A program made the translations under genes and the position numbers. The notes under the pieces are model-generated. The model was not told where the DNA came from and did no database searches. It saw only the letters and a program-made list of their open reading frames with translations. This document shows, piece by piece, positions 35,891 to 56,891 of a DNA stretch of 64,000 nt; the first letter of the stretch is position 1, and every line of letters begins with the position of its first letter. This stretch comes from Ulvibacterium marinum (GTDB lineage Bacteria; Bacteroidota; Bacteroidia; Flavobacteriales; Flavobacteriaceae). The stretch lies in assembly GCF_003626755.1 (NCBI RefSeq), contig NZ_RBCJ01000003.1:62001-126000 (forward strand), read 5' to 3'.

Positions 35891-37279
35891 TTAGTTAGCT
35901 TGCCAATCAAAACCCAATAAATTCAATCCAGCTTGGACATCCTCATTTTGCATAAACAAGTTCCAAAGCAAACCAGATCTATGGTTTTCTATCATTATGA
36001 CAATGGGGCCTTGATCTATGGCTAGATAGGCCTCGGCCACCCAAAAATTGTAATGGGGACTAAAGGCATCATAAAAACCTGCCGGCCCTAAAAGTCTATC
36101 TTTGTTTTTATAGAAATAATGCAAAGCCTTCAAGGATTCGTTAGGTGTATAAGGAATTGAGCTTATGGCTGCCGTTGGGGAAATGACACCTGTATCGTTA
36201 GTTGGACTATGGGCATTGTAGCCTATACTTCCATCGCTGTTTCGGGTGTAACTGGCCGTAAGCCCCCAAGCATCTTCCCCGTAACCGAAATAGTTCTTGG
36301 GGTTTTCAACACAATAACTGTAATTGATTTTGGTATGGTTTACGTTTGCATCCCAATAATTTGCATGATTATCGGAAAGACCTTTTGGATTTAGTCCCAA
36401 ATGGGAATAATGTGCCCAGAATAAGGGTCCGCCGAACGGGGCATCGCCTGCATGGTCTACCACTAATGGAAGATTGTATTGGGTATCTGACGATTTGATT
36501 CCCCCATTGGAAGCCCATCCACTGTCATAGGTTTCCTTGGATATACTAAAATCTGGAGAAGCTGCTGCCAAAACATAGGTGATGAGCACTTCATTATATC
36601 CTTTTAATACTAAATTGATGGCAAAATCATGATTGGGACTCCAATGCCAATATAAAGCATCTTTGTTCTGGGTATACCAATCCCATTCTATTCCTTTCCA
36701 TAGTACATCGGCTTTATCCGCCAATGCCTTTTCGATAGTGCTACCATTTTTAAAATACTCTTTTAGGCATATTAGTCCTTGGGCCAAAAATGCAGTTTCG
36801 ACCAAATCACCACCATTGTCCAAGGGGCTAAAAGGAATAATATTGCCTGATCTACCATCGATCCAATGAGGCCATGCACCATGAAAGCGGTCCGCGGTTT
36901 CCAAAAAATTCACTATTCGTGTAAGTCTTTCAACGCCTTCCTCCCGACTTATAAATCCTCTTTCCATACCCACCAACATAGTCATTAGTCCAAAACCAGT
37001 ACCTCCCGTAGCGACCACATATTGATCCCTGGTCGGCTCATTGGGATGATATCTTTCGCGTGCCCCGCCGGAATTGACTTCCGCAAAGTCCCAGAAATAC
37101 TTGAACGTTTCACGTTGGGTAAGGTCTAGGAGCTCTTCATCGTTTAGAATAGGTTCATCAGGTACGTTATCCTTGGGAGGTTCTGGAATTTGGGATATGC
37201 CAATAGGACCATTTTGGTCATCGGACGAACAAGCCATCATCCATACTAAAACAAAGAAAATACCTAACAATCTGTTCAT
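35891..37279 (-). CDS. GH144-type endo-beta-1,2-glucanase lipoprotein (second copy)
   Basis: This 462-residue lipoprotein (signal ends VWMMAC) belongs to the glucoamylase-like family (PF10091 type) that includes the GH144 endo-beta-1,2-glucanases. Characteristic (alpha/alpha)6-barrel motifs are FKYFWDFAEVNSGGARER, FLETADRFHGAWPHW, DNGGDLVETAFLAQGL, YWHWSPNHDFAINLVLKGYNE and FYDAFSPHYNFWVAEAYLAIDQGPIVIMIENHRSGLLWN. It likely cuts beta-1,2-glucan at the cell surface. Its start overlaps the stop of the upstream paralogue by 4 bases. The two copies are clearly related but diverged, suggesting different cut patterns or branch tolerance. Confidence 0.87.
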   Translation of the reverse strand: MNRLLGIFFVLVWMMACSSDDQNGPIGISQIPEPPKDNVPDEPILNDEELLDLTQRETFKYFWDFAEVNSGGARERYHPNEPTRDQYVVATGGTGFGLMTMLVGMERGFISREEGVERLTRIVNFLETADRFHGAWPHWIDGRSGNIIPFSPLDNGGDLVETAFLAQGLICLKEYFKNGSTIEKALADKADVLWKGIEWDWYTQNKDALYWHWSPNHDFAINLVLKGYNEVLITYVLAAASPDFSISKETYDSGWASNGGIKSSDTQYNLPLVVDHAGDAPFGGPLFWAHYSHLGLNPKGLSDNHANYWDANVNHTKINYSYCVENPKNYFGYGEDAWGLTASYTRNSDGSIGYNAHSPTNDTGVISPTAAISSIPYTPNESLKALHYFYKNKDRLLGPAGFYDAFSPHYNFWVAEAYLAIDQGPIVIMIENHRSGLLWNLFMQNEDVQAGLNLLGFDWQAN

Positions 37280-38643
37280 AATGCTATTTGTGTTCTAGAG
37301 CTATCAAAACCCAATTTATCCAATCCCTTGGCAACATCCTGGTTCTTCATGAATAGCTTCCAAAGCAATCCACTTCTGTAATTTTCTATCATTACCGGGA
37401 TAGGGCCTTGATCTATGGCCAAATAACGGGGCAAGTACCAATCATGCTCCAAACTAAAGGCATCATATGGACCGAATTTACCGATGAGCGTGTCTTGTTC
37501 GGTATACATATATCGTAAAAATGCTATGCTTTGTTTTGGAGTATATGGCATCGATGACAATGCGGCCGTGGGAGAAATTACCCCAAGGTCTTTATCGGGC
37601 CGGTGTCCGGCATAACCTTTCATGGAATAGCTGGATGTTAGGCCCCAGCAATTAGGGCCATAACCTTCATAATCATTTGGGTTATCAACACAATACCTAT
37701 AGTGGGTTAGGGCGTGGTTTTTGTTCAGCTTCCAATAATCCGCAAATTGATCGGTGAGTCCGTTGGGGTCAAGTCCCAAATACGAATAATGGGCCCAGAA
37801 AAGTGGACCTACCGGGGATTCGTCATGTTCGTAATGATCCAGTTCGGTTTCCAGTTCATAGAAAATGGTATCCTTTGTTATGGCCCCATCTCTTGCCCAT
37901 CCTTTTTCATATACTGTTTTCTGTATGGGATATGTGGGAGAGGCGGCCGCCAAAATGTACATGATCAGACACTCATTGTATCCACCAACGGGGAAGTTCA
38001 TTTCCCAACTGTACTTTGGAGACCAATGCCAATAGAGAACATCCTCCCCATCTTTGGTATACCAATTCCATTCTACTTCTTCCCAAAGTTTTTGGATTTT
38101 ATGGGTAAGCTTTTTTTCCCTTGCATTACCATTTTTAAAGTACTCGCTTACGGTTAGCAACCCTTGTATCAGAAACGCGGTTTCAACCAAATCCCCTCCA
38201 TCATCCTTGGTGCTAAAGGGAGCCACTTTTCCGTTGGGCATTAACCAATGGGGCCAGGCCCCGTGGAAACGATCGGCCGTCGCCAAAAAATCGACAGCTC
38301 TTTCATAGCGTTCCAAGGCTTGTTTGCGGGTAATAAATCCGCGTTCAATTCCTGCCAGGATGGCCATCAATCCGAAACCGGATCCTCCAATAGTAATGAT
38401 ATCCTTATCGTGAGTAGGATATATATTATCCATGTGAATACGTTCCCTAGCCAATCCGGAAATAGGTTCGGCCCCATCCCAAAAGTAATTGAAAGTCTGT
38501 TTTTGGATGGTATCCAACAGCATACCATCCGACCATTCAATTGTTTTGGAAATACTGTTCGCAGATTTTTCCTTTGTAGAAAAATGACCATTGCAACCAA
38601 ACAACAGTGAAGCAATGGCCATTACAGTTAAAATTAACCTCAT
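37276..38643 (-). CDS. GH144-type endo-beta-1,2-glucanase lipoprotein (first copy)
   Basis: The 455-residue paralogue of the next gene starts with a lipoprotein signal (ASLLFGC). It shares the full barrel pattern: FNYFWDGAEPISGLARERIH, ADRFHGAWPHWLM, DDGGDLVETAFLIQGL, YWHWSPKYSWEMNFPVGGYNE and a C-terminal FGPYDAFSLEHDWYLPRYLAIDQGPIPVMIENYRSGLLWK. It probably acts at the outer face with SusCD, producing sophorooligosaccharides. Cotranslation with the downstream copy is indicated by ATGA overlap. Catalytic residues cannot be assigned with confidence without alignment. Confidence 0.87.
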   Translation of the reverse strand: MRLILTVMAIASLLFGCNGHFSTKEKSANSISKTIEWSDGMLLDTIQKQTFNYFWDGAEPISGLARERIHMDNIYPTHDKDIITIGGSGFGLMAILAGIERGFITRKQALERYERAVDFLATADRFHGAWPHWLMPNGKVAPFSTKDDGGDLVETAFLIQGLLTVSEYFKNGNAREKKLTHKIQKLWEEVEWNWYTKDGEDVLYWHWSPKYSWEMNFPVGGYNECLIMYILAAASPTYPIQKTVYEKGWARDGAITKDTIFYELETELDHYEHDESPVGPLFWAHYSYLGLDPNGLTDQFADYWKLNKNHALTHYRYCVDNPNDYEGYGPNCWGLTSSYSMKGYAGHRPDKDLGVISPTAALSSMPYTPKQSIAFLRYMYTEQDTLIGKFGPYDAFSLEHDWYLPRYLAIDQGPIPVMIENYRSGLLWKLFMKNQDVAKGLDKLGFDSSRTQIAL

Positions 38644-40476: not shown

Positions 40477-42030
40477 TTATCTATTATTTACTATGTCACC
40501 CAGAATAGGGAATTCATCTATCTGTTCCTGGTGGTAGGTTACAAAGGCCCTGTCCTGGGTAAAAGTCCTTCCCCCGTAACTCAATTCATCATTTCTACCT
40601 AACCGAACCATATCAAAAAACCGTTTGCCCCACTCCATGGCCAACTCCGCATATTTTTCGTCCACTACATCATCCAACGTAACTCCGGACAAGGAAGGCA
40701 TGCCGGCACGGTCCCTTACAAGATTCACGGCCTGATCGGCGGTAAGGCCGGAACCGGAAGCTCCTTGAAGTAAGGCTTCGGCATACATCAAAAGCGTTTC
40801 CGCATACCGGAAAACGATATAATTTTTGTTGCTTCCGTACGCCGTGCGTCCCGGAATTAACTGATTGGTAGGCAAATAATGCTTTCCGCTGGAAAATATA
40901 GATCGTACACTGGCGGTATTTGTATCCCCATCTCTTGTTGTGGGCGATACAACAGCGGGTAAGGTAGTCTCTGTATATGGCGTTGTCGCAATTAGGCTAT
41001 CGATTCCTCTTTGACTAAAGAATACGGAAGTCTCCAGACGAACATTTTCTTCCCTATCCAACATAAACTCCACGAATTTCAACGTCGGTTCAAAGAAGCC
41101 CCAACCATTACTGGCACCGGCGACAGTGGGATCCCAAGATTGTGGCCCGTAAGGTGCATAAAGATGCCCTACCCGATCTCCCTGATCTTGTCCAAAATCT
41201 GAATATTGGAACTCGAAAAGGCTTTCATCGCTTAGCTTACCGGGTGTTTTGAACAGTTCATAAAAATCATCAAAAAGACTGAATTTACCCGAGTTGATTA
41301 TCTGACCCGTTACATCCGCAACGACCTGATAGTTCTCCAATTCCTGATTTGCGGCCGCCTTGAGCATAAGGGCTGTGTATCTTGTAACTCCGCCGGGTAG
41401 GTCGGTACGTTCATTGGGACGCATATCCGGTAGAAGGGGAATGGCCTCATCCATCTGATCGGAAATATGCTGCATCACCTGATCCTTGGTGGGCACTTCG
41501 GTGATATCCTCAAAAGCACTTAGGTCCGAAGATTCCGGAATAAAGACATCTCCATATACCTGGGAAAGTTGAAAAAGCAACAATGCCCTTAATACCTTGG
41601 CTTCGGCTATGTATTGATTGCCCAGGACAATTCCCGCGTCATCGGCAAATTCCTGATACCTTTCGATTTGTTCCATACCCGTATGGGCCGTGATGATATC
41701 GGTATAGTAGGTTTCCCAAAACGTTCTTGAACCGAAAAAGGAGTTGTCATAAATATAGCGATCCTGATTGATTAGACCCTGTTGATCCCCGGCAGCATTT
41801 ACGTCATCCCCACGAGTGGAAACAACCAAAGGCTGTTCCCATCCCCGGCTATTGACCTCACGATAAATTCCGATTAGGGAGAAAATCATATCCTCGGTCC
41901 TTGAAAAATCCGCTCCTCCACTAAAATCCTTGTTAAGTTGAGGTTGGTCCAATTGTTCCGAGCAACCGGTAAGCAGTATTCCTGCCAGAACCAAAAACAA
42001 TGGTAATCTGTTTATTTTTAAGTGTATCAT
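40477..42030 (-). CDS. susD: SusD/RagB-family outer-membrane nutrient-binding lipoprotein
   Basis: The 517-residue lipoprotein (signal ends ILLTGC) has SusD/RagB features: an N-terminal segment DMIFSLIGIYREVNSRGWEQP, helical TPR-like packing (VLRALLLFQLSQVYGDVFIP), and the C-terminal RYAETLLMYAEALLQ ... ELAMEWGKRFFDMVRLG signature. It forms a lid over the SusC transporter on the cell surface and binds the oligosaccharide substrate. It lies 11 bases after susC and 14 bases before the LamG protein. The susD symbol marks the family, not starch specificity. Confidence 0.93.
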   Translation of the reverse strand: MIHLKINRLPLFLVLAGILLTGCSEQLDQPQLNKDFSGGADFSRTEDMIFSLIGIYREVNSRGWEQPLVVSTRGDDVNAAGDQQGLINQDRYIYDNSFFGSRTFWETYYTDIITAHTGMEQIERYQEFADDAGIVLGNQYIAEAKVLRALLLFQLSQVYGDVFIPESSDLSAFEDITEVPTKDQVMQHISDQMDEAIPLLPDMRPNERTDLPGGVTRYTALMLKAAANQELENYQVVADVTGQIINSGKFSLFDDFYELFKTPGKLSDESLFEFQYSDFGQDQGDRVGHLYAPYGPQSWDPTVAGASNGWGFFEPTLKFVEFMLDREENVRLETSVFFSQRGIDSLIATTPYTETTLPAVVSPTTRDGDTNTASVRSIFSSGKHYLPTNQLIPGRTAYGSNKNYIVFRYAETLLMYAEALLQGASGSGLTADQAVNLVRDRAGMPSLSGVTLDDVVDEKYAELAMEWGKRFFDMVRLGRNDELSYGGRTFTQDRAFVTYHQEQIDEFPILGDIVNNR

Positions 42031-42041
42031 AGCTATTTTCT

Positions 42042-45000
42042 TTAAATTTTAATGTTCATGCCAAACGTATATACTCCGGCTATGGGATAGGTCTGTTGAT
42101 CCCTACCATTTGCCACTTCAGGGGAAAAGCCATTGTAATCAAATAAGGTCAAAGGCCGTTCGGCGGTTAGATAAAGTCGAATCTTTGGTGCAAATTTTCC
42201 TGTCAGCTGAGGTAATGTGTAACCTAGGGTAACATTCTGCAAGCGGACAAAATCACCATCTTCAACAAAAAAACTATTCAGAAATTCGTTGCTCCAGGAG
42301 TTTTTTATTCCCCTAGCAGAGGGATAGCTATTGGTACTTCCGGGGCCTGTCCATCGGTTTAGGGCAAAATCCCGATCAATATTGGGATCCGGCGTCTGTC
42401 GTATGGCAAAGCGTCTCATGTTTGCAATGACATGACCTCCCTGACCTATTACATTTAAGGAAAAATCGAAAGCCTTGTAATTGATCCCTAGGTTAAAGCC
42501 AAAGGTATAGGAAGGCAAATAGGATCCTAGGTCTACCCTATCCTGTGCATCGATCAATCCATCTCCGTTGTGATCTACATATCTGAAATCCCCTGGTTCT
42601 ATGGTACGTCCACCGTTAATTGCGGCCACGGCCGCGGGATCGGACTGAATCTCCTCGGGAGTCTGGTAGACCCCGTCTACCTCAAGGCCAAAGAAGTGAT
42701 TTATGGATCGCCCTACTATGGATCGTTGGGCAGTATCCCCACCAGTAAGCAGATTTTCCTGACCGTCCAAATCCAACACCTCATTTTTTAAGGTGGCTAT
42801 ATTGCCCCCGATCGTATAACTGAAATCGGGTGAAACCTGCTTGTTCCAATTCAGTGCCAGTTCAAAACCGGAATTTCGTATTCCTCCCACGTTCTGCCTC
42901 AATTCTCCTGCAACCAAAAGTCTTGATACCGGAATTACGGCATCTTCGGTATCCCTAATGTAATAATCGGATTCAATAGACAATTGATTGTCGAACAACC
43001 TTGCCGTAAGGCCAAAGTTGGTTTCCGCAGTTCTCTCCCACCGCAAGGCCACAAAATCACTACTTGTTACGGTGCCCGAAAATGGGATGTCACCAAAATT
43101 GGCAAGCACCTCTTCAGAAGTGATGTCGCCCTCACTGGCAGCAACATTGGCGTTACCCAATTCACCCCAGCTGGCCCGTAGCTTCAGGAAATCGAAAATG
43201 CCATTATTCTGCATAAAAGGCTCCTGGGAAACTACCCAACCTGCACCAAAGGCAGGGAAATACCCCCATTTTTCCTGATACTTACTGGTGCCGTCCGCAC
43301 GAAACGTTCCATACAATAAATACTTATTGTCAAAATTATAGGCCACACGACCGAAATAGGAAAGAAAATATTCCCGTCTTCCGTCATCCCCGGTAACCCT
43401 TGTATTGTTTTCCATATCCACAATAGTCTGGGCCAAATCCAGGAAATAGGCCTCATCACCAATTCCGGGACCTATAGGAAAATTTAGCCCCTTTGCTTCC
43501 AACAGCTCAAAAGAAAGGTCCCTAAAGGCAGTACCTCCCAAGACGGTAAGGTTATGTTTTCCAAAACTATCATTATAGGTAAGGGTATTGTCCCAAGTCT
43601 GCTCTGAGAAGGTTTGGTTCTTTTTAATTAATTCCGCATTTTCCCTGAAGGCGTTTCCGGTACCAAAGAAATAGGGAAACCTCAACTCTCGGGTCTCTAT
43701 GGTTTCAAAGTTGTGGTAATACGCCGTTTTAAAGGTCAATTTTTCAGGGATGACTTGGTAACTAAGATCTAGTGCCATTAAGGTATTTCGTATTCTATCC
43801 CTATTTTCTGTATTCTCCATGAGTGGAAAGGGGTTTTGTGGGCCCCTGTATCCTAAATCCTGTGCATTGGCATAAGGTCTAGGAAACGCATCCGTTTTGG
43901 ATGGGTCCAAGACTGGCATTACCGGTACGGCGGAATAGGCTGAAGCAAAAGCGGCTTCTTCCGGTCGGAAACGGGTAGCGTTGCTAAAAAGGGTTGAAAT
44001 TCCGGCTTGTAGTCTATCGCTTAAGTCAACATTTAGCTTGCCCCTAATGTTAAATCGTTCAAAATCATTTTTCATCCTGAGCACACCTTCCTGCTCAAAA
44101 TAGTTTAATCCAAGGGAATAGGTTGAGTTTTCCGATCCCCCAGTAGCCCCCAAACTATGGTTTTGTATGTGAGCATGACGAAGGATTAGATCATACCAAT
44201 CCGTATTTACATCCGGTATGTTGGGATTGATTCTGCTCCTTCCATAGCGTTGGATGGCATTTTCAATGAACTGGGCCTCCGCATCGGAACCGGACTCCCG
44301 TGCCACGGTGGCAAATTGTTCCGAATTGGACAATCTTACCACATTTTGGGCTATCTGGACACCTTGGTACCCGTCATACGTAATCTGGGCCTTTTGATTT
44401 TTTTTCCCGGATTTGGTCTGGATCAAGACTACCCCATTTGCCGCCCTTACTCCATAAATGGCAGAGGCAGAGGCATCTTTAAGCACTGAAATGGTCTCGA
44501 TGTCCTCATTGTTCAAAAAATCGATATCATCGTAAAAGGCACCGTCAACAATATACAGCGGTGTTGAGGGGTCAAAACTATCTCCAATATTGTTGTCATA
44601 AGACCCAATACCCCGAACCCGTATAGTAGGTGCCGCACCAGGGGCGCCGCTAGTAACCACTTGGAGACCGGCAACCTTACCTTGTAAGGACTGCATGGGT
44701 GCGCCTGCGGGTGTTTTGGTAATATCTTCCGATTCAATGGTAGTAATTGCACCCGTTAAATCAGCTTTCTTTTGTGTGCCATACCCCACAACTACTACTT
44801 CGTCCAACGCTTGCGTGTCCTCCTGTAGGGTTATGTTAAGGGTACTCTGTCCATTGACCGGAACCTCCTGGGTGGTATAACCAATATAACTGATGACCAA
44901 GGTTGCATCGGTTGGTACATCGGCTAGGGTAAAGTTCCCATCAAAATCAGTCTGCGTGCCTATGGTAGTCCCCTTTACGATTATTGAGGCCCCCGGCAGT

Positions 45001-45110
45001 AGATTGCCTGTATTGTCCGATATCGTTCCAGATACTGTAATATCCTGAGCGAATACCACAAATTGAAACATAAAAAATGAAATCGACAATAAAACGCTTT
45101 TTAATTTCAT
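42042..45110 (-). CDS. susC: SusC/RagA-family TonB-dependent outer-membrane transporter
   Basis: The 1022-residue protein has a signal peptide (ends VVFAQ), an N-terminal carboxypeptidase-like domain (about 24-98: ITVSGTISDNTGNLLPGASIIVKGT), a TonB-box region (DEVVVVGYGTQKK), a plug (ADLTGAITTIES; SLQGKVAGLQV; IRVRGIGSYDNN) and a 22-strand barrel to the C terminus (IAGVYTFGMNIKI). It imports oligosaccharides using TonB energy, paired with SusD. It is the first gene of the PUL operon, and its upstream region carries paired direct repeats shared with the upstream peptide gene. The symbol denotes the family only. Confidence 0.94.
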   Translation of the reverse strand: MKLKSVLLSISFFMFQFVVFAQDITVSGTISDNTGNLLPGASIIVKGTTIGTQTDFDGNFTLADVPTDATLVISYIGYTTQEVPVNGQSTLNITLQEDTQALDEVVVVGYGTQKKADLTGAITTIESEDITKTPAGAPMQSLQGKVAGLQVVTSGAPGAAPTIRVRGIGSYDNNIGDSFDPSTPLYIVDGAFYDDIDFLNNEDIETISVLKDASASAIYGVRAANGVVLIQTKSGKKNQKAQITYDGYQGVQIAQNVVRLSNSEQFATVARESGSDAEAQFIENAIQRYGRSRINPNIPDVNTDWYDLILRHAHIQNHSLGATGGSENSTYSLGLNYFEQEGVLRMKNDFERFNIRGKLNVDLSDRLQAGISTLFSNATRFRPEEAAFASAYSAVPVMPVLDPSKTDAFPRPYANAQDLGYRGPQNPFPLMENTENRDRIRNTLMALDLSYQVIPEKLTFKTAYYHNFETIETRELRFPYFFGTGNAFRENAELIKKNQTFSEQTWDNTLTYNDSFGKHNLTVLGGTAFRDLSFELLEAKGLNFPIGPGIGDEAYFLDLAQTIVDMENNTRVTGDDGRREYFLSYFGRVAYNFDNKYLLYGTFRADGTSKYQEKWGYFPAFGAGWVVSQEPFMQNNGIFDFLKLRASWGELGNANVAASEGDITSEEVLANFGDIPFSGTVTSSDFVALRWERTAETNFGLTARLFDNQLSIESDYYIRDTEDAVIPVSRLLVAGELRQNVGGIRNSGFELALNWNKQVSPDFSYTIGGNIATLKNEVLDLDGQENLLTGGDTAQRSIVGRSINHFFGLEVDGVYQTPEEIQSDPAAVAAINGGRTIEPGDFRYVDHNGDGLIDAQDRVDLGSYLPSYTFGFNLGINYKAFDFSLNVIGQGGHVIANMRRFAIRQTPDPNIDRDFALNRWTGPGSTNSYPSARGIKNSWSNEFLNSFFVEDGDFVRLQNVTLGYTLPQLTGKFAPKIRLYLTAERPLTLFDYNGFSPEVANGRDQQTYPIAGVYTFGMNIKI

Positions 45111-45180
45111 ATTTGTTCATTAATTGAGTTAGATTATTGCCAAATTAGTAAAACAAATCAGCGCTAAGTCGAGAAAGGAT

Positions 45181-45198
45181 TACATAAAAAATACATCA
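45181..45198 (-). promoter_or_regulatory. Paired direct repeat upstream of susC (proximal site)
   Basis: TACATAA (45181) and TACATCA (45192) are separated by exactly 11 bases start to start, one DNA turn. The pair lies 34 bases from a -7-like element and 71 bases from the susC ATG. The same arrangement occurs at 47589-47606. A LuxR-type activator bound as a tandem dimer is the likely reader. Confidence 0.6.
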
Positions 45199-45279
45199 GG
45201 TACTACTGCACCCAAAGGCCTTATTTATCCTACGATTGCAGTATTTATTACGTTCGGAGAACTTAAATTTTTAACATTG

Positions 45280-45297
45280 TGATGTGGTAATGATGTA
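45280..45297 (-). promoter_or_regulatory. Paired direct repeat upstream of susC (distal, reverse orientation)
   Basis: TGATGTG (45280) and TGATGTA (45291) repeat with the same 11-base period in the opposite orientation to the proximal pair, 99 bases further upstream. The layout is mirrored at 47692-47709. Confidence 0.55.
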
Positions 45298-45670
45298 GTT
45301 GAATTATGTTAAATATGGAATCCGAAAAAGTTATGGATTGGTGATTCTTGTTGGATTTAGTGGGTTGCCTGATAAGATCTTATGAATAGTCCAAACTATA
45401 TTTTACTGCAATATTCCTATATATGATGAAAAATTCTCTCCAATGGACACCATTTTCTCTTGAAAGAAAGGTTAGGTTTCAAGGTTTTATTGTTATGAAA
45501 ATCGATTCTTGGTAGATATTCAAAAATACCTTTTTGGAGTTAAAATCTCAAAATGTTTCCAATCCTCAACTCCTTCGATGGAACGATCCAATTGGTGAAC
45601 GAATGATATGTATGAAGCATCAATGCCTTATTGTATGGATTTGGTGGAGTAGGCCCTTAAGAAAGGTTTC

Positions 45671-46861
45671 TCAGATTTTATTTAAAACCCGAATATTCCC
45701 ACTAGAGCAAAACTCCACTAATTGGTATTTTTCTTTGTTTAATTTATACCTTCTGGTAGGGAATGATTGAATAAAAAAACCACCCCTGTACAATAAAGAT
45801 CTGGGCATTTTCAATTTTTTTATCTTCTTGAAGTGAACTTGATTTTCATTTACAGAATTTTTGCAAATTTCAATGCTAAATCTGTTTAATTTATATGTTC
45901 CGGTTCTTACCCCTTTCATTTTGATGCTCAGCTGACCTGAAAGAAAGTAATCTATTTTAAAAAGCATTTTATTAAGATTTGGAAGTATTCTATTGTACCA
46001 GGAGTTGGCCAAAAGGCCTGTAAATGAGATCAATTTATTTTTTCTGATCAAATACTTATCAATGTAGAATGTGTCCGGAACAAGGGGCCATTCTTTTTTT
46101 CTAGTGTACCTATTTGCCTTATAAAGAATCAAATGGTAGAGCAATACTTCAAATTCGTTTTTAAACGAGAGCACTCCTTTTTCCCACTTCAATTGGCCAG
46201 GGAGCCCTTCAATGACCAAAAAATCAAAATGAACTTTTAAATTGTTTTCCTTTTGTTCTCTTTTAATGACGTGATGCATACTTTCTATATCACAATCAAT
46301 ATCAAAAATATCACCTCCCTCCTGCAAATAGCGGTGACGAAAATTGCACTCATCAAAACAGTAATGGGTATCTGACCGGAACACTTTTTTAAAGTCCCTA
46401 CTTTTCCTAAAAAGCGTGTTGATTTTGTTGTTGTTTTTAAACAACATAAAAGATCCTGTAGGATAATCGTTTCTTACGGAAATGATTTCGTAGTTATCCA
46501 GCAGTTCATTGGTCATGAATTCCCGTATTCTTCCAAATACAATGTCTATGTCCGTAATTCCCCAGAACGGATAGGTCGTGATGTATTCCGAAAAAATAAC
46601 ACCATAGGCCGGTTTAAAATCACATAATTTATAAGCACTCTTAATGGTTACTTCAAAACCAAGTTTTTCCGTTGCCAAAAGATTGAATTCCTTTATGGTA
46701 AATGAAATTACCTTTATATTTTCAGGGAGATTCTTAGGAGTGGGGCAATCCGAAAAAATAATGAAATCTATGGTGGGGTTAGTGGCACATGATTTTAAAA
46801 ACAAATCAAAATACCACGGAAATTTACCAAAGTAACATGTTATGAGGAGTATTTTAGGCAT
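45671..46861 (-). CDS. DUF6625-like glycosyltransferase
   Basis: From the ATG at 46861 the product has 396 residues (an in-frame ATG at 46870 adds three). The N terminus MPKILLITCYFGKFPWYFD, then FIIFSDCPTP, FSEYITTYPFWGITDIDIVFGRI and VRNDYPTGSFMLFKNN fit GT-A-like enzymes of the DUF6625 type, with DIDIVFG as a DxD-like metal/nucleotide-sugar site. No signal or membrane segment is present. The C-terminal 100 residues are basic and unassigned. It sits between the PUL and a cysteine-rich leader peptide gene; it may modify that peptide or an envelope glycan (inference). Confidence 0.75.
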   Translation of the reverse strand: MPKILLITCYFGKFPWYFDLFLKSCATNPTIDFIIFSDCPTPKNLPENIKVISFTIKEFNLLATEKLGFEVTIKSAYKLCDFKPAYGVIFSEYITTYPFWGITDIDIVFGRIREFMTNELLDNYEIISVRNDYPTGSFMLFKNNNKINTLFRKSRDFKKVFRSDTHYCFDECNFRHRYLQEGGDIFDIDCDIESMHHVIKREQKENNLKVHFDFLVIEGLPGQLKWEKGVLSFKNEFEVLLYHLILYKANRYTRKKEWPLVPDTFYIDKYLIRKNKLISFTGLLANSWYNRILPNLNKMLFKIDYFLSGQLSIKMKGVRTGTYKLNRFSIEICKNSVNENQVHFKKIKKLKMPRSLLYRGGFFIQSFPTRRYKLNKEKYQLVEFCSSGNIRVLNKI

Positions 46862-47116
46862 GGTAAACATATCATTTTTATTAATTCACTGGAGTGGAGA
46901 ATAAAACTTATTGGATTCATAAATTGGATTCTCCTAATCTTTTTCGCAGGTGGCTGAATTTTTAATATGGATTTCCACATGACTTTATGGTGGTCAGTAG
47001 AACTTAGGCTCAGGGTTGTGGCCTCAATTGCAAAAGGATTTCTGGTTCCCCGCTGATTTTATAAACTTCTTCGCAATAACGGCTCAATGACTATTAAAAT
47101 TGGACAAGCAAAACCA

Positions 47117-47146
47117 ATAGGGCACTTTGACCTTAAAGTACCCTAT
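47117..47146 (-). terminator. Hairpin downstream of the leader-peptide gene
   Basis: ATAGGGCACTTT and AAAGTACCCTAT pair over 12 positions with one mismatch around a 6-base loop, 9 bases after the peptide stop on the minus strand; a weak T-rich tail (TGGTTTTG) follows. It fits a partial terminator separating the peptide from the glycosyltransferase gene. Confidence 0.5.
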
Positions 47147-47154
47147 AGTGCTAT

Positions 47155-47373
47155 CTAACAGACGGTGTCCTCAACAGCACAGCATGCTACTCCTCCATGG
47201 CCATCACAGATATGGTAATAAGACGGGCTGCAATTTGGGAGACCCCGCGAGAGTAGTCCGTCTGCACATCTTATCTCATAAACATCATAACCGGTACTGC
47301 CGCCACCGGCAATCATTCTCATTTCTTTTCTAGTCAAAGTTTCCTTCAACTGTTTAAAACTAATTTTCTTCAT
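47155..47373 (-). CDS. Cysteine-rich double-glycine leader peptide (possible RiPP or bacteriocin precursor)
   Basis: This 72-residue peptide has a Bacteroidota-type leader MKKISFKQLKETLTRKEMRMIAGG, in which LTRKEMRMIAGG is the double-glycine cleavage motif recognised by C39-peptidase exporters (cut after Gly23-Gly24). The predicted mature part (about 48 residues) contains six cysteines (36, 48, 56, 64, 65, 72), enough for three disulfides or thioether rings, and is Gly/Tyr-rich. No maturation enzyme or exporter is adjacent, only a glycosyltransferase downstream. Activity (bacteriocin, signal or surface peptide) is unknown. Confidence 0.72.
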   Translation of the reverse strand: MKKISFKQLKETLTRKEMRMIAGGGSTGYDVYEIRCADGLLSRGLPNCSPSYYHICDGHGGVACCAVEDTVC

Positions 47374-47588
47374 AATGGAATATTGATGAAATTATGCCTA
47401 CTCTATTCTAGCTTTTCGGCTTCCGCTATACTTTTGTATTGGCTCCGATTATCTATCAACTCATTTTTAAGAATGGTAAGCCCAAGAATTCGTTTATTGA
47501 GAGATCTGTGTTGCCGAGAGTTGCATTAAAGCATAGTTTTAGACTTTTTAAAAGTATCTAAACAATCTCAAAAAAGTAGGTAAAGTAC

Positions 47589-47606
47589 TACATAAAAAGT
47601 ACATCA
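47589..47606 (-). promoter_or_regulatory. Paired direct repeat upstream of the leader peptide (proximal site)
   Basis: TACATAA (47589) and TACATCA (47600) repeat with an 11-base period, 33 bases from the -7-like element, matching the susC site in sequence (15 of the 18 bases align without gaps as TACATAAAAA.TACATCA) and spacing. Confidence 0.6.
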
Positions 47607-47691
47607 TGATATTTCAATCTTTCAAAAAGAAAGAATTTACGTTATAGTACTATACTATTTACGTGTAATTTTATGAAGAAAAAACAAAGAA

Positions 47692-47709
47692 TGATGTAGT
47701 ATTGATGTA
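47692..47709 (-). promoter_or_regulatory. Paired direct repeat upstream of the leader peptide (distal, reverse orientation)
   Basis: TGATGTA occurs at 47692 and 47703 (11-base period), 103 bases upstream of the proximal pair and about 20 bases past the regulator stop codon. Same orientation and layout as at 45280-45297. Confidence 0.55.
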
Positions 47710-47729: not shown

Positions 47730-50483
47730 CTACTTTAGAGTAATTAGGAAGTTAGAAAGGTTTTGGGAACTGTCCATTTTGAGCTTTTTTCTTAGCCGGT
47801 ATCGATGTATTTCAACACCCCGTATGGTTATACCCATTAAAGGAGCAATTTCCTTGGAAGAAAGATTCATTTTCAAATAGGCGCAAAGCTTTAGGTCTTT
47901 GGGAGTAAGATCCGGAAATTGTTGTAGCAGATTTTCAAAAAAGTCCTCGTGGAGTTCCTTGAAATTTACCTCAAAATGATTCCAATCCTCATCCTCGTTT
48001 ATGGAGCTGTTCAGTTTTTTGGAGAGTGAGCGATACCGCTGTTTGTTGGAAAATTCATTTTTGTGAAGCACGAGCATTTCCTTCAGTTCCAATATCAATT
48101 CGTTCTTTTTTACCATATCCATGGTGGTCCGGGCCAATTCTTTTTGCTTCTGTTTTATTTCCCTTTCCAATTTTTCCTTTTCCAAAGCGGCCAGCCGTTC
48201 TTCCTGTTCCCTTTGTAACTGCTCTTTTAGCTTATCATGCTTTCGTCTAAGCTTTTGTTTATTGTAGTAACGTACTAAAAATACTAACCCTATCAAACCC
48301 ATGACATAAAGGGCAATACTCAGTTTGGAGAGGAACCAAGGCGGGGCTATTTCAAATTGGATTGTAAGGGGAGCGGACCTTTTATTGTCCATACTTACCG
48401 TAGATATCCGGATTTGATAGTCGCCATGTGGCAAATTCTGAAAATCTAGGGTACCCTCATCGGTGATTTGGGATTTTGAACTGGGACCACTGAGCTCATA
48501 ATGATATCTTGGCTTTACCAAACTTGGAGCGGAGACCTGTAAGCGTATTTCCTTTGCATATCTATTGGGAATATGAAATGATGAGGAATCAATGGAATGG
48601 AGGCGCTCCCCATCCCTAAAATAACTGAGTTTGGGAACAGGAAGTGTAAAATTCCCCAAACGATTTTGTAATTGTGAAATGTTGATTCTGCCAAATCCAT
48701 CACTTAAGGTCAAAAGATAAATGGAATCGTTTTGTTTGAATACATTTTCAGCATCCGGTACCAACCGTTGCTCCAAGGTCGGTTCCGATATGGATATATT
48801 CTCGGTCTTTAAATTCGTATAACTTATTTCATTATTGCCTTCCCCGTTCAAAAACCAAAAATTAGTGCCGTCCGTATAAATAAGGTCTTTATGGGTATAC
48901 GGCTGAAACTCTTCAAAAATGGCAACTTTTCCAAGTATGGCATCGTATTTATACCAAAGTCCTTCACTCTGTATAACGATCTGGTTTTTTATGTTGTATA
49001 GCTTTATGTTATAATTATTGGCAATGACATCTGTTCCAAATTCTTTGGTTTCCAAAATTTCACTTAGTTCAGGATTTAGTTCAAACCTGAACAGGCCTTT
49101 GTAGGGGTGAGCGGCCCAAACGGTCCGTTGATCTTCAAAACAAAGCCGTTTTATAGGATATCCCACACCTTTGATACGGGTTATCTGCCAGTCTCCATTT
49201 TGACTTTTTTGATATTTGGCAACCCCTGTATAGGTACCTTGCAAAAAGGTGTTCTCACTTTCTGGGACCTTTACCAATTGGTAGCCCCCGGTGATGTTGG
49301 ACACTTTTTCCAATTTATCCCCAACTATTTTGAAGGTTCCTGTATTATGGCCGGCGAATAATTCATTTTCTATTGTTTTTAAATCCCATACGTGACCTTG
49401 GGAACCGCTTACGAAATTCAATGTATTCCCCTCAAAGTAATAAATGCCCGTATTGCTTCCCAGATATACCGTATTTCCATGAACCAAAATATCATATACC
49501 GTCCCTAGGGCACCGGTATAGTCCGTATAGTAGGTAATAGGGGTATTAATATGAAGTTTGTCCAGACCATTGTCCAGCCCCGCCCATAATTGGTCTTGAA
49601 ATTGTGCCAGGGATAACACCGTATTGTTCTGAAGCCCTGTCTCCCTATTGATGTTTCTTGCCGTTTTTTGTTCAATATCATACAAATAAATACCATTCTT
49701 TATAGTCCCGAAAACCACTTCCTTTGAAGTTAGGAACAAAATTTTATTGAGTTGATGGAACTTCAAATCCTCATTTATAGCTTCTTCCCAAGGTTTTAAA
49801 GTTTCGTTATTATATAGATAGCAACCGTTTAATTTGGTTCCTATGAGCAATTCATCATTTAAGGTAGCCATATCGGTTACCGTTTTTCCGTTTAACAGCT
49901 CCTGATTCCCTAAGGAGATTAGCTCGTTGTCGGATAACCTAAATAGTTCATTTTGTCCCCCGGCCACGATGAGTTCACCCCTAAATAGAACCATATCGGA
50001 TACAAATGGGGTATTTACAACCGTTATTTCATTGTCCTTATAGATATAGATTCCGGCAACAGATCGGAAGATTATGGATTCCTTATAGGACAGGATTTCC
50101 CAGAACTCCTCACTGGTAAATTCATGGTCTTTTATCAGATGCGTGAGAGAGGTATATTGCAGCGTACCCACTTCATTCTTCATCCAAAATCCAAATTCCT
50201 CGTAAGATCCCGTAAAAATTTTACCATCTAGATAAGCCACAGAACGTATAATGGTTTTGTTGGGTAACTTGTTCAAGGTCCATTCTTCACCATTAAAATG
50301 AAGTAGCCCCGCATTGTTAGCCACAAAAAGCTCCCCATTTTCATCAACAGCGATTCCCCAGTTCTTACCCGCAGCATCGTACTCAAAAACCTTATAATTA
50401 TGAATGGGGGGCAAAAGCTCCTGTGCGCCCGACAAGAAGGGGATGCACAAAAAGAAGACACCATATATTAAAATGTGCCGCAT
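47730..50483 (-). CDS. Propeller / Y_Y_Y / LuxR-type transmembrane transcription regulator
   Basis: This 917-residue protein has a signal peptide (ends SGAQE), an extracytoplasmic beta-propeller region (about 30-620, repeated WGIAVDENGELFVANN- and LWAGLDNGLDKLHI-type blades), a Y_Y_Y domain (RYHYELSGPSSKSQ...DYQIRIS), one membrane segment (about 730-750), a long coiled coil and a C-terminal LuxR/NarL-type HTH (LTPKDLKLCAYLKMNLSSKEIAPLMGITIRGVEIHRYRLRKKL). It lacks kinase and receiver domains, so ligand sensing and DNA binding are in one chain. It is the likely reader of the paired 11-bp repeats upstream of the peptide gene and susC. Confidence 0.87.
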   Translation of the reverse strand: MRHILIYGVFFLCIPFLSGAQELLPPIHNYKVFEYDAAGKNWGIAVDENGELFVANNAGLLHFNGEEWTLNKLPNKTIIRSVAYLDGKIFTGSYEEFGFWMKNEVGTLQYTSLTHLIKDHEFTSEEFWEILSYKESIIFRSVAGIYIYKDNEITVVNTPFVSDMVLFRGELIVAGGQNELFRLSDNELISLGNQELLNGKTVTDMATLNDELLIGTKLNGCYLYNNETLKPWEEAINEDLKFHQLNKILFLTSKEVVFGTIKNGIYLYDIEQKTARNINRETGLQNNTVLSLAQFQDQLWAGLDNGLDKLHINTPITYYTDYTGALGTVYDILVHGNTVYLGSNTGIYYFEGNTLNFVSGSQGHVWDLKTIENELFAGHNTGTFKIVGDKLEKVSNITGGYQLVKVPESENTFLQGTYTGVAKYQKSQNGDWQITRIKGVGYPIKRLCFEDQRTVWAAHPYKGLFRFELNPELSEILETKEFGTDVIANNYNIKLYNIKNQIVIQSEGLWYKYDAILGKVAIFEEFQPYTHKDLIYTDGTNFWFLNGEGNNEISYTNLKTENISISEPTLEQRLVPDAENVFKQNDSIYLLTLSDGFGRINISQLQNRLGNFTLPVPKLSYFRDGERLHSIDSSSFHIPNRYAKEIRLQVSAPSLVKPRYHYELSGPSSKSQITDEGTLDFQNLPHGDYQIRISTVSMDNKRSAPLTIQFEIAPPWFLSKLSIALYVMGLIGLVFLVRYYNKQKLRRKHDKLKEQLQREQEERLAALEKEKLEREIKQKQKELARTTMDMVKKNELILELKEMLVLHKNEFSNKQRYRSLSKKLNSSINEDEDWNHFEVNFKELHEDFFENLLQQFPDLTPKDLKLCAYLKMNLSSKEIAPLMGITIRGVEIHRYRLRKKLKMDSSQNLSNFLITLK

Positions 50484-55529: not shown

Positions 55530-56891
55530 ATGTGCGATCTCGTTCAAAAATATAATATTCCGGGTCCCCGTTACACCAGTTATCCCACGGTTCCCTATTG
55601 GAACATCGAGACTTTTTCGGGGAAGGAATGGAAATCTACCTTGAAGCGTAGTTTTGAAGAGAGCAATTCGTCCGAAGGCATCAGTCTCTATATTCATTTA
55701 CCTTTTTGTGAAAGTATGTGCACCTTCTGTGGATGCCATAAACGCATTACCAAACGGCATGATGTTGAAGCTCCTTATATTAAGACTGTTTTAAAGGAAT
55801 GGAGATTATATTGTAACCTGTTCTCGGAAAAACCGATTATTAAGGAATTACATTTAGGGGGAGGTACACCTACCTTTTTTTCGCCCCTGAATCTAAAGCG
55901 GCTTATCAACGGAATTTTCAGTACGGCCGTAAAATCGGATGGCTATGAGTTTAGTTTTGAAGGCCATCCCAATAATACCACCAAAGAGCATCTACAGGCC
56001 CTGTATGATGTAGGTTTCAGAAGGGTAAGCTATGGCATACAGGACTATAACCTAACCGTTCAAAAGGCAATTCATAGGATACAACCTTTTGAAAATGTTA
56101 AGAATGTTACGGAATGGCCCCGTGAAATTGGGTATGAGTCCATTGGGCACGATATCATTTTCGGATTGCCCCATCAGACTTTGGCCAATATTGAACAGAC
56201 CATAACCATGACCAAAGCACTAAAGCCGGACCGATTGGCTTTTTATAGCTACGCACATGTTCCATGGTTAAGGGGCAATGGACAACGTGGCTATAGGGAT
56301 GAAGATCTTCCATCGGCCGAGGAAAAACGAAAGCAGTATGAAACCGGAAAGAAACTATTGACCAAAGCGGGGTATCATGAAATAGGCATGGATCACTTTG
56401 CACTTTCTTCAGATGGACTCTATACATCCATGGAGTCTGGAAAGTTGCATCGTAATTTTATGGGTTATACGGCTTCCAAGACTCAATTGATGATTGGTTT
56501 GGGGGTCTCCAGTATAAGTGACAGCTGGTACAGTTTTGCACAAAACGTAAAAAATCTTGAAGAGTATACCCATTTGGTGGACAATGCTATCATTCCCATT
56601 TATAGAGGCCATATTCTTACCGATGAAGACCGAATCATTAGAAGGCACATATTGAATTTAATGTGCAGATTTGGGACCTCATGGAGTGACACAGATTTAC
56701 ATTTCCCTGCATTGCCATCGGTATTGGATCGACTACATGAAATGGAACTGGACCAATTGATAGATATTCGCCCAAATCAAATTAAGGTGACCCAAAAGGG
56801 AAGGCCTTTTATACGTAATATTTGTATGGCCTTTGATGTCCTCCTTCATAGAAAGGCTCCAGAGACACGTTTATTTTCCATGACAGTTTAA
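55530..56891 (+). CDS. hemN: Oxygen-independent coproporphyrinogen III oxidase
   Basis: The 453-residue radical SAM enzyme carries YIHLPFCESMCTFCGCHK with the 4Fe-4S cysteines Cys60, Cys64 and Cys67 plus Cys69, as in HemN. Further family motifs are LHLGGGTPTFF and SYGIQDYN, and FYSYAHVPWLRGNGQRGY, which distinguishes HemN from HemW. It converts coproporphyrinogen III to protoporphyrinogen IX without oxygen in haem synthesis. The FNR-like box upstream and the universal stress protein 16 bases downstream point to an anaerobic or microaerobic operon. Confidence 0.96.
   Translation: MCDLVQKYNIPGPRYTSYPTVPYWNIETFSGKEWKSTLKRSFEESNSSEGISLYIHLPFCESMCTFCGCHKRITKRHDVEAPYIKTVLKEWRLYCNLFSEKPIIKELHLGGGTPTFFSPLNLKRLINGIFSTAVKSDGYEFSFEGHPNNTTKEHLQALYDVGFRRVSYGIQDYNLTVQKAIHRIQPFENVKNVTEWPREIGYESIGHDIIFGLPHQTLANIEQTITMTKALKPDRLAFYSYAHVPWLRGNGQRGYRDEDLPSAEEKRKQYETGKKLLTKAGYHEIGMDHFALSSDGLYTSMESGKLHRNFMGYTASKTQLMIGLGVSSISDSWYSFAQNVKNLEEYTHLVDNAIIPIYRGHILTDEDRIIRRHILNLMCRFGTSWSDTDLHFPALPSVLDRLHEMELDQLIDIRPNQIKVTQKGRPFIRNICMAFDVLLHRKAPETRLFSMTV

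Follow-up and report, generated by a model that had tools for sequence, protein, structure and literature searches.

The DNA considered here, hereafter the window, is a stretch of 64,000 nucleotides (nt) of Ulvibacterium marinum (contig NZ_RBCJ01000003.1, positions 62,001 to 126,000, forward strand). It contains two copies of a two-pair repeat module, one upstream of the uptake gene susC and the other (copy A) upstream of a gene for a small Cys-rich peptide, next to the gene of a regulator that combines a propeller-type sensor with a GerE/LuxR DNA-binding domain (Table 1). Read on the minus strand, which is the strand of all genes concerned, each module consists of a distal pair TACATCA-N4-(T/C)ACATCA, a spacer of about 80 bp and a proximal pair TGATGTA-N4-TTATGTA, with a TANTTTG-like element about 33 bp past the proximal pair. 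The half-sites within each pair are 11 bp apart, and the distal pair is inverted relative to the proximal one. A preliminary description of this DNA had placed the repeats, on the forward strand, at 45181 (TACATAA), 45192 (TACATCA), 45280 (TGATGTG) and 45291 (TGATGTA) for susC and at 47589 (TACATAA), 47600 (TACATCA), 47692 (TGATGTA) and 47703 (TGATGTA) for the peptide gene; all eight positions are exact, and its pair-to-pair distances of 99 (susC) and 103 (peptide) are reproduced. Its -7-like elements also stand, although their distances from the repeats are 33 and 32 rather than 34 and 33, a matter of counting convention. The second target, described there as a leader-peptide gene, is indeed a small Cys-rich gene, but its product is a peptide precursor with a double-glycine (GG) leader and not an attenuator-type leader peptide.

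Table 1. Coordinates of the modules and surrounding features in the window
Feature	Position	Strand	Remarks
susC operator, promoter-proximal pair	45181..45198	-	degenerate half-site TACATAA nearest the promoter, then TACATCA; equivalent in 80/80 named loci
susC operator, distal pair	45280..45297	-	TACATCA-TTAC-CACATCA (minus strand); sister-genome homology restarts at its first base
susC promoter element TAATTTGG, Bacteroidota -7 type	45140..45147	-	33 bp beyond the proximal pair; inside conserved aligned positions 67-78
Putative peptide-gene operator (copy A), promoter-proximal pair	47589..47606	-	usual TACATAA present
Putative peptide-gene operator (copy A), distal pair	47692..47709	-	both half-sites perfect
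Peptide promoter -7-like element TACTTTTA	47549..47556	-	32 bp beyond the proximal pair; placed against the 80-locus alignment
Predicted one-component regulator	47730..50483	-	propeller + Y_Y_Y sensor, hydrophobic stretch ~721-737, charged linker, GerE/LuxR DNA-binding domain
susC, TonB-linked outer-membrane protein	42042..45110	-	TIGR04056, 818.6 bits (cut-off 368)
susD	40477..42030	-	PF07980
Two adjacent GH144-type endo-beta-1,2-glucanase genes	37276-38643 and 35891-37279	-	PF10091 in both
Inserted/replaced segment	45298..47759	-	3' end of the regulator gene (~30 nt), then copy A, the peptide gene and the DUF6625 gene, up to the first base of the susC operator
Cys-rich peptide precursor with GG leader, 72 aa	47155..47373	-	sub-threshold TIGR04149 leader match
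Terminator-like hairpin just past the peptide gene	47117..47146	-	weak: the region has 3 such sites, shuffled sequence 1.9 on average
DUF6625 protein, probable glycosyltransferase	45671..46870	-	PF20330, 218.6 bits

Repeats of this kind could in principle arise by chance in AT-rich DNA, and single pairs, when searched loosely, do stay close to background. With up to two mismatches, 47 sites are found in the genome compared to 30 with a reversed control, which shows that loose single pairs are mostly noise, and a search of the window with up to three mismatches returned 8 matches compared to 6.1 expected, which is not significant. The significance of the module therefore lies in its two-pair geometry. 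The pattern given in the preliminary description is not frequent in the 5.9-Mb genome: the genome scan proposed there finds three occurrences, all in this region. With at most one mismatch, TACATCA-N4-TACATCA has eight sites genome-wide, four here and four elsewhere, and since the latter each lie within a long open frame, no further regulon members were found at this stringency beyond the two promoters. The complete two-pair pattern was then run on 397 genomes of the family without reference to genes, with the reversed pattern on both strands as a control. The TACATCA version has matches in 22 of the 397 genomes and none in the control, amounting to 23 distinct places (one place being read on both strands), of which two are in this genome. 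All 21 places outside it are flanked by a homolog of the window regulator on one side and a homolog of susC on the other. A version of the pattern with TACGTCA half-sites matches in 12 genomes, again with zero control matches, and all 12 places are likewise situated between a regulator homolog and a susC homolog. Together with the presence of the module in 80 of 80 orthologous loci described below, these empty controls refute a chance origin, the probability of which is virtually nil, and confirm that the arrangement is non-random, as the preliminary description had argued.

The comparison of orthologous loci, likewise proposed there, started from 15 aligned regulators, with which named genomes were scanned; this yielded 114 relatives, the best 80 of which were kept. 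These named loci include Zobellia, Maribacter, Muricauda/Allomuricauda/Flagellimonas, Arenibacter and Cellulophaga; they were picked by regulator similarity and overlap with the genomes of the 397-genome search. The criteria allowed three mismatches in the distal pair and two in the proximal one, either A or G at position 4, and any spacing from 95 to 105. Far from being absent, both pairs are found between the regulator and susC in all 80 loci (best 80 of the 114 relatives). The spacing between the pairs is 98 (n = 12), 99 (34), 100 (23) or 101 (11), with no other values within the accepted range, and in 60 of the 80 loci the proximal pair lies 71 bp from the susC start; the place of the promoter relative to the module is fixed as well. 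The distance from the distal pair to the regulator stop codon varies far more than the pair spacing, from 21 to 122 bp with one case of 1316. The half-site nearest the promoter is TACATAA in 77 loci and TACATTA in three, indicating that the weakness of this half-site is itself conserved. The spacer is little conserved apart from GTTAA after the distal pair, while a CTGCA element is present at one of two adjacent offsets in 61 of the 77 strict TACATCA loci. The narrow pair spacing fits a protein bridge and hence looping of the DNA; looping stays unproven because the distance to the start codon is also narrow.

The regulator itself is a protein of 917 aa, in which Pfam found only two domains: a GerE helix-turn-helix (HTH) at the C-terminus (PF00196, 26.3 bits, above the cut-off of 23.5) and Y_Y_Y (24.6 bits, just below the cut-off of 26.6). 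No kinase, receiver or AraC HTH was found by Pfam in the 917-aa sequence. The sensor profile matches the sensors of hybrid two-component systems (HTCS) 3v9f (E 9.1e-19) and 4a2l (E 1.5e-14), the best PDB match of the DNA-binding domain is EsrB, and a single hydrophobic stretch precedes the GerE domain. The sequence thus suggests a one-component relative of HTCS, in which the sensor is joined directly to a GerE domain.

The link between this regulator and the module can be followed in 119 loci with distinct downstream DNA. Strict TACATCA pairs are present in 77 loci, and helix position 892 of the regulator is Ile or Val in all 77; TACGTCA pairs are present in 13 loci, and the residue is Thr in all 13, the helix of one of these (L070) having been read by eye as the helix pattern missed it. 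The remaining 29 loci fit neither strict pattern and comprise one-mismatch variants, degenerate members and a clade of paralogs. The equivalent residue in NarL (Val189) contacts bases. Ile/Val892 with A and Thr892 with G form a candidate residue–base specificity pair. In the paralog clade, the helix is mostly RSVEVK or RSVEIK, and ACAACAT repeats with an 11-bp period lie downstream of two of its loci (L078, L058), perhaps representing a third type of half-site. In 12 of 13 unique TACGTCA loci (L068–L070, L073–L075, L125, L126, L132, L133, L135 and L136, with L131 as the exception), the operator has a third half-site, offset from the start of the distal pair by exactly +66 (6 x 11). The inverse half of the TACGTCA operators is situated at 102, 103, 114 or 115.

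Two other readings of the repeats are affected by these data. The genome encodes other proteins with a similar C-terminal domain, one of which might bind the sites and leave the adjacent gene a mere neighbour. This is very unlikely, as the 21 outside TACATCA places and the 12 TACGTCA places, retrieved by DNA pattern alone, all adjoin this regulator family, and the half-site changes together with the regulator helix. Alternatively, the repeats might be the arms of a hairpin, in RNA or as a cruciform, given that the two pairs are inverse complements of one another and that TACATCA changes to TACGTCA on both sides together. However, agreement of the 4-bp spacers across the arms is 0.4125 in the 80 loci compared to 0.416 after shuffling, and a hairpin was rejected on this ground. 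Furthermore, the promoter element lies downstream of the sites, a hairpin would have no need of half-sites repeated at 11 bp, and 12 of 13 TACGTCA loci have the additional half-site at +66, which renders this explanation highly improbable. Taken together, the gene-blind co-occurrence, the conservation in 80 loci and the joint change of helix and half-site make it very probable that the two-pair module serves as operator for the propeller/LuxR regulator encoded next to it, the product of 47730–50483 that the preliminary description had proposed as its reader.

The genes downstream of the susC copy indicate what this operator may serve. The susC-susD pair plus glycoside hydrolases mark the region as a polysaccharide utilization locus (PUL). 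A PDB search with the first of the two GH144-type genes (37276–38643) matches 5gzh, an endo-beta-1,2-glucanase (E 7.4e-173), and a GH3 gene of the locus matches beta-glucosidases. GH144 homologs are found in 76 of the 80 named regions and in 32 of 36 other fetched regions. The four fetched regions lacking one are L078, L079 and L080, which belong to the paralog clade, and L119, a contig of 12 kb; among the four named regions, L159 and L200 end within about 0.8 kb of the regulator, L198 and L119 are one and the same contig of 12 kb, and L150 does have GH144 in the longer stretch L109. On the basis of the GH144 homologs, the endo-beta-1,2-glucanase match and the GH3 gene, the operator appears to belong to a beta-1,2-glucan utilization locus, with the substrate deduced from the enzymes. 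The two related GH144-type genes adjoin one another in the window, and most orthologous loci match both queries, which is not proof of two copies in each.

Copy A has a different history. In a sister genome, whose regulator is 94% identical to that of the window, the insertion is absent: the alignment ends at 47760, some 30 nt short of the regulator gene's end, and restarts at 45297, the first base of the distal pair of susC. In 19 of 20 regions compared, the regulator is followed by susC after 205–410 bp without a match to the peptide or to DUF6625; the twentieth (L079) is a paralog in this genome, without susC. Similarity between copy A and the susC copy is confined to the pairs and their immediate surroundings (27 of 33 nt at the proximal, 25 of 32 nt at the distal pair), compared to 248 nt at 90% between the susC copy and the sister genome. 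This makes a recent duplication of the susC operator unlikely as the source of copy A. The susC copy is ancestral, and the peptide copy forms part of an insertion known from no other genome examined. The simplest account is that the native stretch was replaced by imported DNA that comprised a regulator tail, an operator of its own and the genes for the peptide and DUF6625 (no donor was found), although an old duplication followed by the insertion may also have given rise to copy A.

Among the surveyed loci, more than about 410 bp separate the regulator from susC only in the window and in one other genome, G277 (L109, named as L150). Here, the stretch between regulator and susC is 1.5 kb long and holds a secreted-looking gene of 180 aa without a Pfam family. 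An intact module lies ahead of susC, and a degraded copy precedes the 180-aa gene, 27 bp past the regulator stop codon (TACTTCA-N4-TTCATCT, with the inverse pair 102 bp on; three and two mismatches). Here, too, a secreted-looking gene with an operator copy, albeit a degraded one, occupies this spot. One could tentatively imagine the operator as a docking point for gene capture: incoming cassettes that bear this operator would recombine into the interval between the regulator gene and susC and thereby fall under glycan control; this idea is doubtful. If it were true, the captured genes for the GG-leader Cys-rich peptide and the putative glycosyltransferase would yield a peptide whose production is triggered by glycan, which is perhaps glycosylated and which acts as an antimicrobial or as a signal.

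The leader of the peptide, MKKISFKQLKETLTRKEMRMIAGG, reaches 20 bits with TIGR04149, below the cut-off of 25. The neighbouring DUF6625 family is found in 4 of 119 genomes and in 19 of 296 genomes of the order, this genome being counted in both. Outside the window, 5 of 22 DUF6625 loci have a GG-leader peptide next to the DUF6625 gene, compared to 0 of 56 control loci; three of the five (L221, L222, L231) do not count as independent, their peptides being nearly identical; a leader motif was present in one of originally 57 controls, L031, which is the window's own peptide and was left out of the count. In G099 (L083), a Cys-rich peptide stands on either side of the DUF6625 gene, and the two have similar leaders of the GG type. 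Pfam (E ≤ 1) gave no glycosyltransferase family for the DUF6625 protein and the PDB no convincing match, while its sequence holds a DID motif; judging from this motif and the neighbours, the protein is probably a glycosyltransferase. No radical-SAM maturase was found near the peptide among the 20 window genes scanned with Pfam; the only radical-SAM gene among these, at 55530–56891, considered as a maturase of ribosomally synthesized and post-translationally modified peptides (RiPPs), is HemN (428.6 bits, over the cut-off). Elsewhere in the genome (G000:C11, at about 238 kb, L240), the gene of a C39-peptidase ABC exporter has as neighbours a gene of UDP-glycosyltransferase type and the end of a further GG-leader peptide, from which it follows that export machinery for GG peptides exists in the genome; this is a possible exporter for the peptide of the window.

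From these comparisons, we infer a mechanism in which an outer sensor of HTCS-type beta-propellers and Y_Y_Y would detect a glycan fragment, probably derived from beta-1,2-glucan. The cytoplasmic GerE/LuxR domains would bind head-to-tail to half-sites 11 bp apart, both at the proximal pair and at the oppositely oriented distal pair about 100 bp upstream, possibly with looping of the DNA between them, and would activate transcription from the -7 promoter, which lies about 33 bp past the proximal pair. Ancestrally, the target would be susC-susD-GH144, to which the inserted segment, with its diverged but intact second operator, would have added the genes for the GG-leader peptide and DUF6625 between regulator and susC. 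As this segment holds both the second operator and the peptide gene, the peptide and the uptake operon would form one regulon with two promoters, and the peptide would probably be made, and perhaps exported and active, when the sugar is sensed.

Several observations weigh against parts of this explanation. In the TACGTCA operators, the pairs are spaced 102–103 or 114–115, so that one helical phase is not kept. Two loci (L145, L155) combine an Ile helix with one TACGTCA half-site in the distal pair, and the code between helix and half-site is therefore not strict. A tree of 77 regulators without their HTH, which covered the 13 TACGTCA loci and the 29 others in full and 35 of the 77 loci of the TACATCA type, places the TACGTCA loci in essentially one clade, including two degenerate members, which points to nearly a single co-change rather than 90 independent events. 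Peptide homologs occur in 1 of 119 genomes, its own, and in none of the 118 others, and a single-sequence AlphaFold model of the DUF6625 protein (predicted local distance difference test score of 32) was unusable and was not used.

The remaining points concern copy A, which might be a mere relic of the arrival of the segment without control over the peptide, the module being an operator at susC alone. No genome but this one carries it, the GTTAA and CTGCA elements widespread among susC operators are missing from it, its spacing of 103 lies outside the 98–101 of the 80 named loci, and about 175 nt separate its -7 element from the ATG of the peptide, leaving a long 5' leader, compared to about 30 nt at susC; moreover, the equivalent copy in the other genome with a captured gene, G277, is degraded. 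On the other hand, the distal pair of copy A is perfect, its proximal pair has the usual TACATAA, the -7-like element is at the expected distance, and the spacer has diverged from that of the susC copy while the pairs stayed alike. A relic is rather unlikely on this balance, and control of the peptide by the regulator likely. A single regulon of polysaccharide-uptake operon and peptide gene, as put forward in the preliminary description, remains the best reading, since the link to the regulator is backed by co-occurrence, by conservation in 80 of 80 loci and by the helix/half-site co-change. We consider the explanation as a whole, with an operator of the regulator, a beta-1,2-glucan locus and a second copy driving the peptide gene, to be highly likely.

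This would provide a sequence-defined and testable operator for propeller/LuxR one-component regulators of Flavobacteriaceae PULs, regulons of which could be found by DNA pattern alone, as well as a concrete case of a peptide gene wired into a sugar-uptake regulon. No published description of such an operator was recognised among the open-licence literature matches listed, which is not proof of absence. Among known systems, the GG-leader RiPP or bacteriocin-like precursors of TIGR04149 resemble the window peptide in their leader, as do leaders beside DUF6625 in some other genomes; however, the window leader is below the cut-off, no radical-SAM maturase was seen beside it, and it is encoded in a PUL. 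The regulator shares its DNA-binding domain with NarL/LuxR (GerE) response regulators such as EsrB, but has no detected receiver and a membrane-anchored glycan-type sensor instead. SusR-like regulators are membrane-spanning PUL activators without a kinase. With the HTCS of Bacteroides PULs, the regulator has in common the propeller and Y_Y_Y sensor, the predicted control of susC/susD and direct-repeat sites, whereas it differs in having no detected kinase, receiver or AraC domain and a GerE domain after the membrane stretch. The sites differ as well: predicted HTCS sites are described as direct repeats about 21 bp apart on average, and predicted SusR-like sites as widely spaced direct repeats with centres 67 or 77 bp apart (PMC3878776). 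In contrast to the former, neighbouring half-sites here have a spacing of 11 bp and form two mutually inverted pairs separated by about 100 bp, and unlike the latter, as described, the pairs are mutually inverted, 98–103 bp apart and each a tight 11-bp tandem.

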